DNA of 64,000 bases from positions 62,001 to 126,000 of the forward strand of contig JAUXVD010000012.1 of the NCBI GenBank assembly GCA_030684575.1, in the 5' to 3' direction. The stretch is from Nitrospirota bacterium (GTDB lineage: Bacteria > Nitrospirota > Nitrospiria > Nitrospirales > Nitrospiraceae). The position numbers were made by a program, and so were the translations under genes. How positions within the stretch are numbered: the stretch's first letter is position 1; the number at the start of each line of letters is the position of its first letter. Of the stretch, positions 19,132-44,862 are shown piece by piece. A model generated the notes under the pieces. The model had not been told where the DNA came from, made no database searches, and saw only the letters and a list, made by a program, of their open reading frames with translations.

Positions 19132-19256
19132 CAGGATGCTCAAAAAGTCCGTCCAGCAAGGCCGCAGGCGAATCAAAACCGGAGGCGTACCCTTGGGGTA
19201 CGTTGAGGATTTCGATGAGCCGAGAACGACGCTGGCGGACTTTTTCAGCATCCTAC
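19132..19256. repeat. Family-1 palindromic repeat, copy 3 (best-preserved)
   Basis: GCAGGATGCTCAAAAAGTCC at the left, AGGCGTACCC-TTGGGGTACG at the apex and GGACTTTTTCAGCATCCT at the right. The outer 17-18 bases of the two ends pair with one mismatch. It lies between two plus-strand genes, ending 10 bases before the ATG at 19267, so the next gene's leader is formed by the repeat. Confidence 0.92.
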
Positions 19257-40403: not shown

Positions 40404-40701
40404 AGATTTCCAATACTCGACGATAGCCAAACACGGTTATACCGGAAACCGACACATGAGACTTTACATATTTCAGCAATTTCCGTAACAGCCGAGAGGA
40501 TTTACCGGGTGAGACCCCTTTGCCTTTCCTTGTGGATTTCGCATACTGCTTGCGCACCGTTTGAATTAGATACTGGTTCTTGCGAAGTTCTGCTCGTATT
40601 AGCTCTACTGCTGCCTTTGAGAACAGAAACAGGGACATTCTGATTTGTTTGGCTACGGATCGCACAAGCTGAACACTGGCACGTGATTCTTGCGCGCGCA
40701 T
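40393..40701 (-). CDS. Small basic protein upstream of the DUF4145-like gene
   Basis: 102 residues, strongly basic (KSTRKGKGVSPGKSSRLL), overlapping the DUF4145-like gene start by about 11 bases. No motif recognised and no convincing ribosome-binding site; its first codons (GCGCGCAAG) lie in the second repeat family region. It may be a true small gene or an open frame by chance. Confidence 0.35.
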   Translation of the reverse strand: MRAQESRASVQLVRSVAKQIRMSLFLFSKAAVELIRAELRKNQYLIQTVRKQYAKSTRKGKGVSPGKSSRLLRKLLKYVKSHVSVSGITVFGYRRVLEIYAC

Positions 40702-41181
40702 AACATCTTGTCAACGACCCTTCCAAGCTTGCTCATATCTGCTTCAAGTGGGTAGTCTGTTTAGCCACCCACTGCGCTCGTCCAACGGGGCTCTTCTAAG
40801 GGCGCACGTTCCGAGAGCACAGAAAACTTTCCAATCTTCTTCTTGATTCATATCTACCTCTCCAAGGGGAGTAGCCAGATTGCCCTTCACTGCGCGCATT
40901 GAGGGAGCACATTCTGATCGTGCGGCCTCAGCGAGCAAGAAGGGCGGTCTGGCTGCTCCCCCTTCCTTATTCAATGCCCTTCCGAGCTCGCTCATGACTA
41001 TCTAAAAGGGCGGCCTGGTTGATCCTCTATTGCGCGCGTCGAACGATATAAACGATCCTTCCAAGCTTGCTCGCTATCTCTTCAGGGATGGGGACTGATT
41101 GATCTTCCACTGCGTGCGTCCAACGAGGGCCTTCTAAGGCCGCGCGTTGCGCGAGCACAGAAGATCATCAGGCTCCATCCC
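40680..41181. repeat. Cluster of family-2 palindromic repeats
   Basis: About five units in various states of decay. The best, at 41085-41181, is bounded by GGGATGG / CCATCCC, has an inner pair TGATCTTC / GAAGATCA and a core GGCCTTCTAAGGCC within GCGTCCAACGAGGG and GCGCGTTGCGCGAGCA. Others at about 40766-40827 and 40880-41075 show the same core with more changes. The unit is palindromic and unrelated to family 1. No coding sequence is seen in the 559 bases from 40702 to 41260. Confidence 0.75.
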
Positions 41182-41222
41182 CTCCCCCCTCTGAAAGGAT
41201 CCTCCCCCTCGCGCCATACCCT

Positions 41223-41248
41223 GAGTAGGAACAGTGATTCTCCTACTC
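41223..41248. promoter_or_regulatory. Hairpin in the leader of the RnfD-like gene
   Basis: GAGTAGGA, 10-base loop, TCCTACTC, ending 2 bases before the GAGGTG ribosome-binding site (41251-41256) of the ATG at 41261. It could affect translation or be a binding site; function unproved. Confidence 0.4.
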
Positions 41249-41260
41249 ACGAGGTGCCGG

Positions 41261-42136
41261 ATGATCCTAGACCGAGTTAAAACCCACTTCTCCTCTCTCG
41301 ACCCCCGCCTCTACCAAATTGCCAGCCTGAGCACCCTGCTGCTGTATGGCCTCCTCTGGCTGCACTTCGATGTATCCCCATGGCAAATCGTTGTCACACT
41401 CGGCACTGCCTTGCTGACCCAATATGCCGGCACGCGCTACTACAACCTGCCTGTCTTCGATCCCCGCAGCCCGCTCATCTCCGCCCTCTCCCTCTGCCTG
41501 CTCCTCCGCACCGACCACCTCGCCATTGCCGCCTTGGCGGCCTGTATCGCGATTGCCAGCAAGTTCCTCATCCGCTGGAAGGACAAGCACCTCTTCAATC
41601 CCACCAACCTGGCGCTGGTCCTCATACTCTCCGGCGGGTTTGGCTGGATTTCGGCGGGACAATGGGGGCAGGTCGCCTGGTTCGGCTTTCTCATCGTCTG
41701 TCTCGGCAGCCTCGTCGTGACCCGCGCGGCGCGGGCTGATGTCACGCTGGGATTCTTAGGGTTCTATGTCGGGCTACTGTTTGCACGAGCATTCTGGCTG
41801 GGCGATCCCCTGACCATTCCACTCCATCAAATCGAAAGCGGCGCGCTCCTCATCTTTGCCTTCTTCATGATCTCGGACCCGAAGACCACGCCGGACTCCA
41901 GAGCGGGTCGAATCGTCTTCGCGCTGATCGTCGCCTTCGCGGCTCTCTACGTGCAGTTCGGCCTGTTCCAACCCAACGGCCCGCTCTGGGGGCTGATTGT
42001 CTGTTCCCTACTGGTGCCATTTTTGGACTACTTGCTCCCCGGTGTTCGTTACAACTGGTCCCGCCCAACAACGGGCCAGTCCTCTGTGCCTGTTCCGCTG
42101 ACATTGTCCCTTCAACCACAAAGGAGGTTCTCATGA
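41261..42136 (+). CDS. RnfD/NqrB-like membrane protein (orphan)
   Basis: 291 residues from ATG 41261 (GAGGTG upstream; a GTG lies 9 codons earlier). About eight to nine membrane segments. The RnfD-type core motif KHLFNPTNLALVLIL at about 115-129 and ISDPKTTPDSRAGR are clear. The covalent-flavin motif (SGAT-like) of RnfD/NqrB is not seen, and no other Rnf/Nqr subunit is present, so it is an orphan relative. Its stop overlaps the next start by four bases (ATGA), so it is coupled to the DUF2330 gene. Confidence 0.78.
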   Translation: MILDRVKTHFSSLDPRLYQIASLSTLLLYGLLWLHFDVSPWQIVVTLGTALLTQYAGTRYYNLPVFDPRSPLISALSLCLLLRTDHLAIAALAACIAIASKFLIRWKDKHLFNPTNLALVLILSGGFGWISAGQWGQVAWFGFLIVCLGSLVVTRAARADVTLGFLGFYVGLLFARAFWLGDPLTIPLHQIESGALLIFAFFMISDPKTTPDSRAGRIVFALIVAFAALYVQFGLFQPNGPLWGLIVCSLLVPFLDYLLPGVRYNWSRPTTGQSSVPVPLTLSLQPQRRFS

Positions 42137-43476
42137 GACGCATCATTGTTCCGACATTTACATTCCTGATAGGCCTGCTGATCTGGAGCAGCGACGCTTC
42201 CGCCTTTTGCGGCTTCTATGTCGGAAAGGCCGACACGAAACTCTTCAACAAGGCCTCAGAAGTCGTGATCGCACGCCACGACAACAAGACGGTCCTCACG
42301 ATGGCGAATGATTTCACAGGCGAGGTGAAGGAGTTCGCGATGGTGGTGCCGGTCCCGACGATCTTGGAGAAGGAACAGATCCACGTCGGCGATGCGACGG
42401 TCTTAAAACACCTGGCTGACTATTCGGCGCCAAGACTGGTCGAATATTTCGATGAAAATCCCTGCCTGCGCTATGCAATGGAGGAACGCAGCATGGACGC
42501 CCTCAAAAGCATGGCACCGGCCTCGGTTGGAAAAGCTGAACGGCAGCGTGCCCTGGGCGTCACGGTCGAGGCGCAATATACCGTCGGCGAATACGACATC
42601 CTGATCCTCTCCGCAAAGGAAAGTAGCGGGATGGAAACCTGGCTGACCGAAAACGGTTATCGTATTCCCGTCGGCGCATCGTCTGTACTGCAGAGCTATC
42701 TGAAACAGGGGATGAAGTTCTTTGTGGCGAAAGTGAACCTGGACGAGCAAACCAAGCAGGGCCTCACCCATTTGCGGCCACTGCAGATCGCCTTCGAGTC
42801 GCCGAAATTCATGTTGCCGATCCGCCTCGGCACGGTGAATGCGGATGGGGCGCAGGAACTCTTCATATACTTCCTGACGAAACAGGGCCGCGTTGAAACC
42901 ACGAACTATCGGACTGTGCGTCTGCCTGAAGCACAGGAGATTCCGCTCTACGTAAAAGACAAGTTTGGCGACTTCTATCGCGATCTCTTTACGCAACAAG
43001 TGAAGCGGGAAAGTGAGCGCGGTGTGTTTATGGAATATGCCTGGGACATGAACTGGTGCGATCCCTGCGCAGCCAATCCTCTGTCCGTCGAGGAACTTCG
43101 CGGAATCGGCGTATTCTGGCAAGAGACGACCGGACGGATGGGTAAGGGCATGGGCCAGGCACAGAACGTCTTTCTCACCAGGCTGCATGTCCGTTACGAT
43201 GCGGCACATTTTCCGGAAGACCTCACGTTCCAGGAAACATCGGATCGGTCAAACTTCCAGGCCCGCTACATCCTGCGTCATCCCTGGACCGGTCAGGATG
43301 ACTGTGCGGCAGCGACCGCCTACCGGCAGCAGCTCCGCGAGCGCTATGAGAAGGAAGCACAGACGCTGGCGACATTGACCGGTTGGAACATCGGAGAGAT
43401 CCGCCGGACGATGAACATTCAAACGGCCTCAGCCCCGAGCGACAAGAGGTGGTATAAAAATCTGTGGGCACACTGA
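42133..43476 (+). CDS. DUF2330 secreted protein
   Basis: 447 residues with a signal peptide (LIGLLIWSSDASA, cut before FCGFYVGKADTKLFN). The body matches DUF2330: ASEVVIARHDNKTVLTMAND, FAMVVPVPTILEKEQI, LPIRLGTVNADGAQELFIYF and the CDPCAANPLS segment. Exported, periplasmic or outer-membrane associated. It is coupled to the RnfD-like gene; AAAGGAGG precedes its ATG. A perfect hairpin and a repeat follow. The family has no known reaction. Confidence 0.87.
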   Translation: MRRIIVPTFTFLIGLLIWSSDASAFCGFYVGKADTKLFNKASEVVIARHDNKTVLTMANDFTGEVKEFAMVVPVPTILEKEQIHVGDATVLKHLADYSAPRLVEYFDENPCLRYAMEERSMDALKSMAPASVGKAERQRALGVTVEAQYTVGEYDILILSAKESSGMETWLTENGYRIPVGASSVLQSYLKQGMKFFVAKVNLDEQTKQGLTHLRPLQIAFESPKFMLPIRLGTVNADGAQELFIYFLTKQGRVETTNYRTVRLPEAQEIPLYVKDKFGDFYRDLFTQQVKRESERGVFMEYAWDMNWCDPCAANPLSVEELRGIGVFWQETTGRMGKGMGQAQNVFLTRLHVRYDAAHFPEDLTFQETSDRSNFQARYILRHPWTGQDDCAAATAYRQQLRERYEKEAQTLATLTGWNIGEIRRTMNIQTASAPSDKRWYKNLWAH

Positions 43477-43502
43477 CCACGGAGACTGGCACTGAAACGA
43501 CA

Positions 43503-43535
43503 ACGGCGCGGCGTGGGATTTCCACGCCGCGCCGT
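43503..43535. terminator. Perfect 14-bp hairpin after the DUF2330 gene
   Basis: ACGGCGCGGCGTGG, 5-base loop, CCACGCCGCGCCGT, 26 bases after the stop. It is the strongest hairpin in the window apart from the repeats and lies before the convergent gene at 43762. No U-tract. Confidence 0.7.
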
Positions 43536-43593
43536 ACACTCACGCCAACCCTGCGGCTGACGCTGTTGCTCTACTATGCCGTTGAAGATATTT

Positions 43594-43764
43594 CCAGGAT
43601 GCTCAAAAAGTCCGTCCAGCAAGGCCGCAGGCGATCACCCGTTCACTTAGGGGTGGATGGGATGATCCCAACTGCGCGCGTCCAACGAGGGCCTTCCGAG
43701 GCCGCGCGTTGCGCGAGCAAAGGGATCGCCCCATCTACCCCACTCCATTTTTCAGCATCCGTTA
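43594..43764. repeat. Family-1 palindromic repeat, copy 8, interrupted by a family-2 unit
   Basis: Left end CCAGGATGCTCAAAAAGTCC through GCCGCAGGCGA is family 1; right end TTTTTCAGCATCCGTTA is family 1; the middle, about 43650-43741, is a complete family-2 unit (GGGGTGGATGGG ... CCCATCTACCCC with core GGCCTTCCGAGGCC). The family-1 apex is missing. Nested insertion or replacement is the simplest reading. The end supplies TAA for the minus-strand gene at 43762. Confidence 0.88.
43650..43741. repeat. Family-2 palindromic unit nested in family-1 copy 8
   Basis: Shares about 45 of 49 core bases with the unit at 41085-41181: GCGTCCAACGAGGG, GGCCTTC, AGGCC and GCGCGTTGCGCGAGCA. The outer pairs are GGGGTGGATGGG / CCCATCTACCCC and GATCCC / GGGATC. 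Confidence 0.85.
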
Positions 43765-44862
43765 CGTTCTGACTGAAAGAGAGAAGGTCGTCTGTCTGGT
43801 CGATTGATATGCAAGAGAGACCGAGGGTCCTGCTTGTGCTGGAGCCGCGGGAGTCTCATTCGCCTGGGTCGGCAGAGTCCCTTCGACCGGACTTTCGGCC
43901 GGCTTCCCGTTCTGCAAGGCCTTCCCGAGGTTGCTCAGGAATTGCGAGAAATACTTGTCGAGCTTTCGCGGCGAGATCCCTGAGTTTCTGGTGGCGTCCA
44001 ATACCTGCTGGACGATGGACGAGAGCTGGTTGGGCGCCGATTCTGACGCCGTGGTCAGCGGGGATCCGACAACGCCGGACGCGATGGGCGTTGAGGCCAC
44101 AGGCTCGCTGGGCACAGGCGTTTCGGAAGGCGGAGGCGTCGTCGCCACGTCATTCGTAGGTGCTTCACCCTGAGGCACGGCCTCGGTCGTTGAAGCCTGG
44201 ACTGCGCCATCAGGAACCGTGGTGTCGGCAGGGGGCGCCTGGATCACGTCATCCGTCGTCGGCAGCGGTCCCTGGGTCACGGCGGGAGTCGTGGGAGCCG
44301 GAAGGACGGCCTCAGGCGCGGTGCCTGCCTGGCCGACTACCTCGCCGGTCAATTGGGCGGCAAAGGCGGTTACCGACCGTTCATAATCAACATTCAGGTC
44401 TAGAGCGGACAGGGAGGAGTAGTTCTCAAAACTCTCGCCCAACTTGACGGCCTTGGCCAAGGCCGCGTCATCCTGTCCGCTCAAGACTTTTTTGAAGATG
44501 TTGGCAACCTTCCGAAAGAGGCTGGTGAGGTCCTTGACCTCCTGTTCGTTCAGATCGCCTTCGACGGTCACGCCAAACTCTTGCTTCAGCGAGTACTCGG
44601 CATACTTAGCGTTCACATCCACCGTCTTGCCGTCGCCTTCGGCATGGGACTTATAGCTCACCGCACGGAAATTGGATTGAAGATTCGCCGAGATGGTGAT
44701 CTTGTCTCCCTCTGCCGTCGTCACGCTCAACCGACCTGAAAAGTCGGTCGACACAGCAACTCCACTGACCTTCGTATCCAGCCGCTGGTTGCCAGTGGTA
44801 TTGGTTGGCGCGAGGTTGAAGAACTGGCTGGGATCGACTTGAGTCAGCGCTTGGACGGGCAT
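43762..44862 (-). CDS. Hypothetical protein with Pro/Thr-rich centre
   Basis: 366 residues, GAGGAG upstream of the ATG. The N-terminal 150 residues are protein-like and helical/beta mixed (SVTTAEGDKITISANLQSNF, KYAEYSLKQEFGVTVEGDL, DLTSLFRKVANIFKKVLSG); about 175-265 is a Pro/Thr/Ala-rich spacer; the C-terminus has SIVQQVLDATRNSGISPRKL and ends SLSVRT. No signal peptide. No family is recognised; the modular shape suggests a surface or structural protein. Its stop is in the outer end of a repeat. Confidence 0.7.
   Translation of the reverse strand: MPVQALTQVDPSQFFNLAPTNTTGNQRLDTKVSGVAVSTDFSGRLSVTTAEGDKITISANLQSNFRAVSYKSHAEGDGKTVDVNAKYAEYSLKQEFGVTVEGDLNEQEVKDLTSLFRKVANIFKKVLSGQDDAALAKAVKLGESFENYSSLSALDLNVDYERSVTAFAAQLTGEVVGQAGTAPEAVLPAPTTPAVTQGPLPTTDDVIQAPPADTTVPDGAVQASTTEAVPQGEAPTNDVATTPPPSETPVPSEPVASTPIASGVVGSPLTTASESAPNQLSSIVQQVLDATRNSGISPRKLDKYFSQFLSNLGKALQNGKPAESPVEGTLPTQANETPAAPAQAGPSVSLAYQSTRQTTFSLSVRT

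Follow-up and report, generated by a model that had tools for sequence, protein, structure and literature searches.

A nested hairpin at a Nitrospira stop codon is probably one copy of a genus-wide composite palindromic element

We propose that the nested palindrome at positions 43595–43761 of the window (the whole 64,000-nucleotide stretch of Nitrospirota DNA analysed here) is probably one copy of a Nitrospira-specific palindromic element in which the outer ends and left inner arm of one repeat family (family 1) enclose the hairpin of another (family 2). This chimera would have arisen once, in the ancestor of a genus-level clade, and then been spread and inherited, and it would have arrived at the window locus whole. 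It would be part of a hairpin set built from modules (families 1, 2 and 2b plus side modules), with outer ends fixed at stop codons and interiors that have repeatedly been replaced. Nitrospira are nitrite-oxidising bacteria, and the gene 5′ of the composite is most closely related to genes in named Nitrospira genomes.

In the composite, a family-2 hairpin stands in place of the apex of a family-1 palindrome. Read on the plus strand, the element begins with the family-1 left tip and left inner arm (43595–43634, CAGGATGCTCAAAAAGTCCGTCCAGCAAGGCCGCAGGCGA), a stretch of 40 bp that is common to the family-1 copies at 19132, 34295 and 16888, recurs in genome-wide alignments and is up to 100% identical to the in-window family-1 copies (E 1e-15). 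There follow a spacer characteristic of the composite (43635–43649), homologous across the aligned composite copies, and, in a composite-specific version, the left strand of the family-2 outer stem (43650–43669, GGGGTGGATGGGATGATCCC), recognised from the fold and from compensatory changes in 56 copies. The conserved family-2 apical core (43671–43719, ACTGCGCGCGTCCAACGAGGGCCTTCCGAGGCCGCGCGTTGCGCGAGCA) also occurs in standalone family-2 copies with different stems and matches 41109–41160, in the standalone unit at 41085–41181 (plus strand) of the same window, at 92% over 52 bp (E 9e-17). The right strand of the outer stem (43722–43741, GGGATCGCCCCATCTACCCC), supported by fold and covariation, pairs over 20 bp with 43650–43669, and folding prediction gives this hairpin as the minimum-energy structure. 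The element closes with the 15-nt family-1 right tip (43747–43761, ATTTTTCAGCATCCG), placed by alignment to the family-1 consensus and directly abutting the TAA stop codon of a convergent 366-amino-acid gene (43762–43764, minus strand). At the opposite end lies an outer extension of 21 nt (43574–43594, plus strand, CTATGCCGTTGAAGATATTTC), which came with the element, as it is not present at the empty site in the congener G002.

The hairpin within a hairpin that a sequence-only reading of the window had described is therefore real, as the arm and core matches and the fold attest, and direct reading confirms the stem boundaries it placed at 43650 and 43741, as the alignment does the likeness of the core to the unit at 41085–41181. 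That reading also held the family-1 arms to be intact at both ends, which is so on the left but not on the right, where the tip alone is kept; neither this copy nor any other composite copy aligned has the family-1 right inner arm (GAGCCGAGAACGAAGCTGGCGGAC). Nor is there a target-site duplication around the inner unit at 43650/43741, where direct reading gives ACTTA|GGGG on the left and CCCC|ACTCC on the right. Because the right inner arm is gone and the inner unit is not flanked by a duplication, we discarded the idea that the composite is a clean insertion.

The standalone unit at 41085–41181 lies 5′ of an NQR2/RnfD-like gene, and the orthologous place is occupied by a family-2 hairpin in eight other Nitrospira (L062, L066, L070, L078, L079, L081, L089 and L099). 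Most of these copies have long paired stems that differ from one another, and those in L062 and L081 are degraded. At window positions 41017–41181, and also at L194, half a family-2 core (GCGCGCGTCGAACGA) stands directly before a complete family-2 unit with its leader. It looks as though that unit had entered the apex of another hairpin, the second half of which has gone.

We used the 176-bp feature as a query against its own genome (an assembly of 3.79 Mb in 23 contigs) and recovered nine copies with most of their length covered at 76–100% identity, copy numbers here being minimum counts from scored candidates. These composite copies, at least nine, are homologous over their whole length, including a spacer that is foreign to both parents, and their junctions are identical. 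The composite is present in 18 of the 18 congeners first searched and in none of 12 genomes from other genera of the order, and about 50 copies from 19 genomes of the genus yield one consensus. Since the same junctions recur in at least nine copies here and in 18/18 congeners, the alignments indicate that the composite is an established element type in its own right. Family-1 arms and family-2 cores are found apart from each other in N. moscoviensis, N. defluvii and two further Nitrospira records, where no full composite is among the matches listed (at most 40 scored candidates per genome, in which a full composite would rank first). As both families occur without the full composite in these four Nitrospira, both probably predate it.

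It is very improbable, by contrast, that the nest at the window locus came about there through transposition of one family-2 unit into a family-1 copy. The anatomy here does resemble one hairpin within another, and such events did occur at two other loci described below (C21:114.6 kb and C8:300.5 kb). However, the identical composite with identical junctions is found genus-wide, the orthologous site in G002 is without the whole element, and the composite copies aligned share the loss of the family-1 right inner arm. These results overturn the earlier proposal that one palindrome landed in another at 43594–43764, and with it the notion of a nesting unique to this locus: the same composite in many places, which the proposal itself had named as the observation that would tell against it, is what we found, in stronger form. 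A nested repeat seen once is of no use for relative dating until the nest is known to be, or not to be, an element. The inferred order, family 1 before family 2, does not follow from the window copy; a case for it can be made solely in the ancestor and at the C21 locus.

The G002 comparison bears on how the composite came to its present site. In G002 the orthologous gene ends in ACG-TAG, which is followed directly by intergenic sequence, whereas the window gene ends in ACG-TAA, followed by the 167-nt composite, the 21-nt extension, TAG and then the same intergenic sequence (GCCCTA|CGTTGTGACTG in G002 versus GCTCTA|extension and composite|CGTTCTGACTG in the window). Because the entire composite is absent from the orthologous site, it appears to have reached the window locus as a whole unit, at the convergent gene's stop codon, although this one comparison also allows a precise loss in G002. 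The TAA on the near side and TAG on the far side of the composite, with TAG in the empty site, may represent a 3-bp TAR duplication at this one locus. Three named Nitrospira (L070, L074 and L080) also have no element here. In two more (L072:6450–6572 and L085:5274–5396), a family-1 element sits at the same convergent-gene stop codon in the opposite orientation, and this is an independent arrival. In the relatives compared, the orthologous locus, where the sequence-only reading had suggested seeking uninterrupted family-1 copies, has none in the same orientation: it is empty in G002 and carries the oppositely oriented elements in L072 and L085.

A search for other nested cases found them elsewhere, three of the loci being the following. 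At C21:114636–114850 a family-2 unit, with its leader (TTCCAAGCTTGCTTG) and a different stem of its own, fills the space between two intact family-1 arms; among relatives, the same place holds uninterrupted family 1 in G017 and G002 and no element in G009 and G042. At C8:300468–300746 a composite carries a family-2b unit in its apex, a nest of three levels, with about 10 nt of the outer apex (CAACGAGGGC) lost, and the orthologous place in G009 and G013 holds an uninterrupted composite (flanking matches of about 86–92%). The arrangement at C16:69.1 kb is the same. Of the 26 non-redundant family-2b units counted across the genus, 14 have GCGCGCGTC on one side and CTTCNGAGGCC on the other, within outer hairpins whose stems are not the same. 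The use of one position in different outer hairpins can mean either a preferred site or a swap of whole cores between hairpins. The apex in these nests is replaced, not cleanly inserted into. The past movement of family 2 that had been read from the window copy is not supported by that copy; it is supported at these other loci, where units lie inside older palindromes, and there by apex replacement and not by clean insertion.

The range of states at a single stop codon is illustrated by the gene next to L002, which we read in 24 congeners. The composite is present in G000 (the genome of the window), G017 and G045. G005 has a composite that contains a further insert, at least six congeners have family 1, and G036 has family 1 enclosing family-2 units; about 10 of the 24 have no element. 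Every element-bearing gene at this locus ends in TAA or TAG, and TGA occurs in empty ones only (5 of 10). The composite of G017 and the family-1 element of G042 have an unusual outer arm (GAGTATCCTGCCCAG) in common, and these shared changes suggest that the two descend from one insertion whose interior was replaced. On the tree of the gene (one gene of 1.2 kb, with several weak forks) the interior states are spread over the branches, and the direction of the swaps cannot be read from them.

Other parts of the elements also vary as units. Composites, and some family-1 elements as well, contain in their left arm a module of about 45 nt (CACCCGCCC…GGCGCGCC…TTGTCCC) (L170, L171, L175–L178, L181–L183, L210, L283 and L293). 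An alternative apex, GGGGAGTCYGCGACC for GGGCCTTCNGAGGCC, is shared by composites and standalone family-2 units (L145, L150, L152, L153, L155, L160, L173, L012 and L030), which suggests that cores have been exchanged between the two types.

Anchoring at stop codons is a property of one end of the elements. Read towards the element, the family-1 right end has a one-sided tag, YTAG|CAGG (T in 45/50 copies, A in 38/50 and G in 40/50, with C in 28, T in 13 and G in 5 at the first position), and no matching motif is conserved at the left flank over the 50 copies. Counting only genes with at least 50 sense codons upstream, the tag is an in-frame stop codon in 28 of 49 family-1 copies (TAG 25, TAA 2, TGA 1), and the composite abuts one in 29 of 50 (TAG 17, TAA 10, TGA 2). 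The corresponding figures for the other end are 0/50 for family 1 and 1/42 for the composite. Such abutment is known in kind, as the termini of GTAG-tagged REPs have been reported often to supply the TAG stop codon of flanking open reading frames (PMC3733652).

The composite outer stem shows strong covariation. In 56 copies there are 18 double-change cells at 10 pairs, compared with 3.1 expected in column shuffles; none of 500 shuffles was as high, which is not a probability because the copies are related, and slid controls, with 3–8 cells, agree. The family-1 tips covary too, which is unusual for ends recognised by sequence. Derived mismatches comprise 32 G.T and 26 A.C, leaving out two positions where G.T is common. 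The similarity of these counts means that there is no strand preference and no sign of selection on the RNA of one strand, and this balance favours a DNA-level process such as template switching.

The same features could also be explained if the hairpins are kept for an RNA function, as 3′-UTR structures that follow the stop codon and act in transcription termination or in protecting mRNA ends; selection on RNA folding would then underlie the covariation. Their position immediately 3′ of stop codons in constant orientation to the gene, the covariation itself, the A and T tracts that flank the family-1 stem and the retention of a paired family-2 stem at one orthologous place in several species would all fit, but we regard this as unlikely. 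New mismatches have no excess of G.U over A.C (32 versus 26), about 10 of 24 congeners do without an element at one stop codon, convergent junctions are neither in clear excess nor dominant among element sites (by crude, home-made gene calls) and positions 40500–44500 of the window have no Rfam match at E values up to 1.

Two further alternatives invoke a transposase. Single-stranded mobilisation of REP- or REPIN-like DNA by a Y1 (IS200/IS605-type) enzyme that cuts by a TAG-like tag, with nests formed when one folded unit enters another, would account for the one-sided YTAG tag without a counterpart motif at the other end, and it has a precedent in GTAG REPs, which are reported to supply TAG stops to adjacent open reading frames and in some species to sit in other palindromes (PMC3733652). 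We nevertheless think it rather doubtful, because the junction has TAA or TGA stops too (12 of the 29 stop-abutting composites), apex sequence is replaced and not just interrupted, and the sole Y1 (IS200-like) transposase found in the genome (L169, G000:C8:620812–621135) is bounded by unrelated repeats (AAAGGGGTCAGGTCTTGCAATC…GATTGCAAGA). There is no family-1 or family-2 element in the 3.3-kb locus of this single Y1_Tnp match, so the flanks of the only Y1 gene found lend no support to RAYT-driven spread. The L169 gene adjoins a fragmentary Rhs/YD-repeat-like gene. It is more improbable that the elements are MITEs of a transposase acting on terminal inverted repeats (for example IS5-like, with a YTA or YTAR target), the composite being a second MITE with the same ends. 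The outer tips are indeed conserved in hundreds of copies, the forward pattern having 155 matches and the reverse pattern 153 (versus 4 and 5 in the control), and a candidate 3-bp duplication is seen in the TAA/TAG on either side of the composite where the empty site has TAG. However, the tips covary and do not keep a fixed recognition sequence, the flanks are asymmetric and no full-length transposase-bearing relative was identified; no transposase was found tied to family-1 or composite ends, and by eye none of the first 100 places listed was a transposase-bearing pair of tips.

For the composite as an inherited element type with replaceable interiors, the best-supported account is that replacement would proceed by template switching or gene conversion between dispersed hairpin copies during replication. 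The same process would also re-match the arms. SbcCD normally cleaves palindromes of such size, and selection acts against them. Replacement may be tolerated here as this palindrome nuclease appears to be missing: a single search of one genome, that of the window (G000, 99.8% complete), gave no match to its SbcD half (TIGR00619), whereas 13 of 14 control genomes match. It is possible that SbcD, and with it the palindrome nuclease, has been lost in G000, and such a loss would explain the tolerance of long palindromes. SbcCD is the nuclease known to cleave DNA hairpins (PMC6265447, PMC4245961), and we had considered apex cleavage by SbcCD followed by repair from other copies as the means of swapping, but dropped it because SbcD was not found. 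Template switching is documented to create and maintain hairpins (PMC8794818).

A more far-reaching version of this account is that the elements form a cassette-like palindrome system, in which outer arms dock at a stop codon and replication-linked template switching swaps inner hairpins between dispersed copies, giving nests of up to three levels; the lineage would have lost SbcCD. We put this forward tentatively. The origin and upkeep of long perfect stems is an open question that this genus can address, as it has many covarying nested palindromes, several of them with intact, nested and empty states at orthologous sites, and these give before-and-after pairs with which exchange by template switching can be set against the action of an enzyme.

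Among known systems, the closest kind is that of tagged REP- and BIME-type palindromes, but defining features of each (the GTAG tag, the length, the RAYT linkage and the side-by-side order) fail here. Like GTAG-tagged REPs (PMC3733652), the Nitrospira elements are high-copy palindromes with a tag at one end that is often the TAG stop of the neighbouring gene, and with several families found within larger palindromes. Unlike those REPs, which are 20–40 bp long with a GTAG tag, they measure about 125 bp (family 1) or about 165–192 bp (composite), and their tag is YTAG or YTAA (family 1 has YTAG, and composites abut TAA or TGA as well as TAG); the interiors can be exchanged for one another, and no Y1 transposase with REP linkage was found. 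As in BIMEs, palindromic units make up mosaic extragenic elements, here from families 1, 2 and 2b and the 45-nt side module. BIMEs, however, consist of REPs side by side in alternating orientation (PMC2817692, PMC3733652), and not of a hairpin within a hairpin. The short non-autonomous palindromes of the REPIN/RAYT system (PMC3116915) are likewise spread over the genome, but no RAYT is flanked by the present sequences, and the single Y1 gene here resembles instead the ‘TIRYT’ type, RAYT-like genes with other terminal repeats and a GGGGWSAS motif (PMC3733652). With MITEs the elements share a lack of coding capacity, many copies and inverted ends (tips like CAGGATGCTC and GAGCATCCTG, complementary in most copies), and they differ in having covarying ends, asymmetric flanks and no autonomous partner recognised among the places listed. 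Template-switch (quasipalindrome) correction (PMC8794818, PMC7202029) similarly re-matches arms and produces compensatory changes without selection, but the exchange of whole interiors between dispersed copies that we infer exceeds arm correction. For Nitrospira palindromes or MITEs, the open-access literature searched gave nothing beyond a generic count of predicted REPs in N. moscoviensis (PMC12306157). Nesting as such is not new, as REPs within palindromes have already been described (PMC3733652). What is new, judged by the open-access literature searched, are the Nitrospira families themselves, the three-level nests, the replacement of interiors at orthologous stop codons and the coincidence of these with a missing SbcD.
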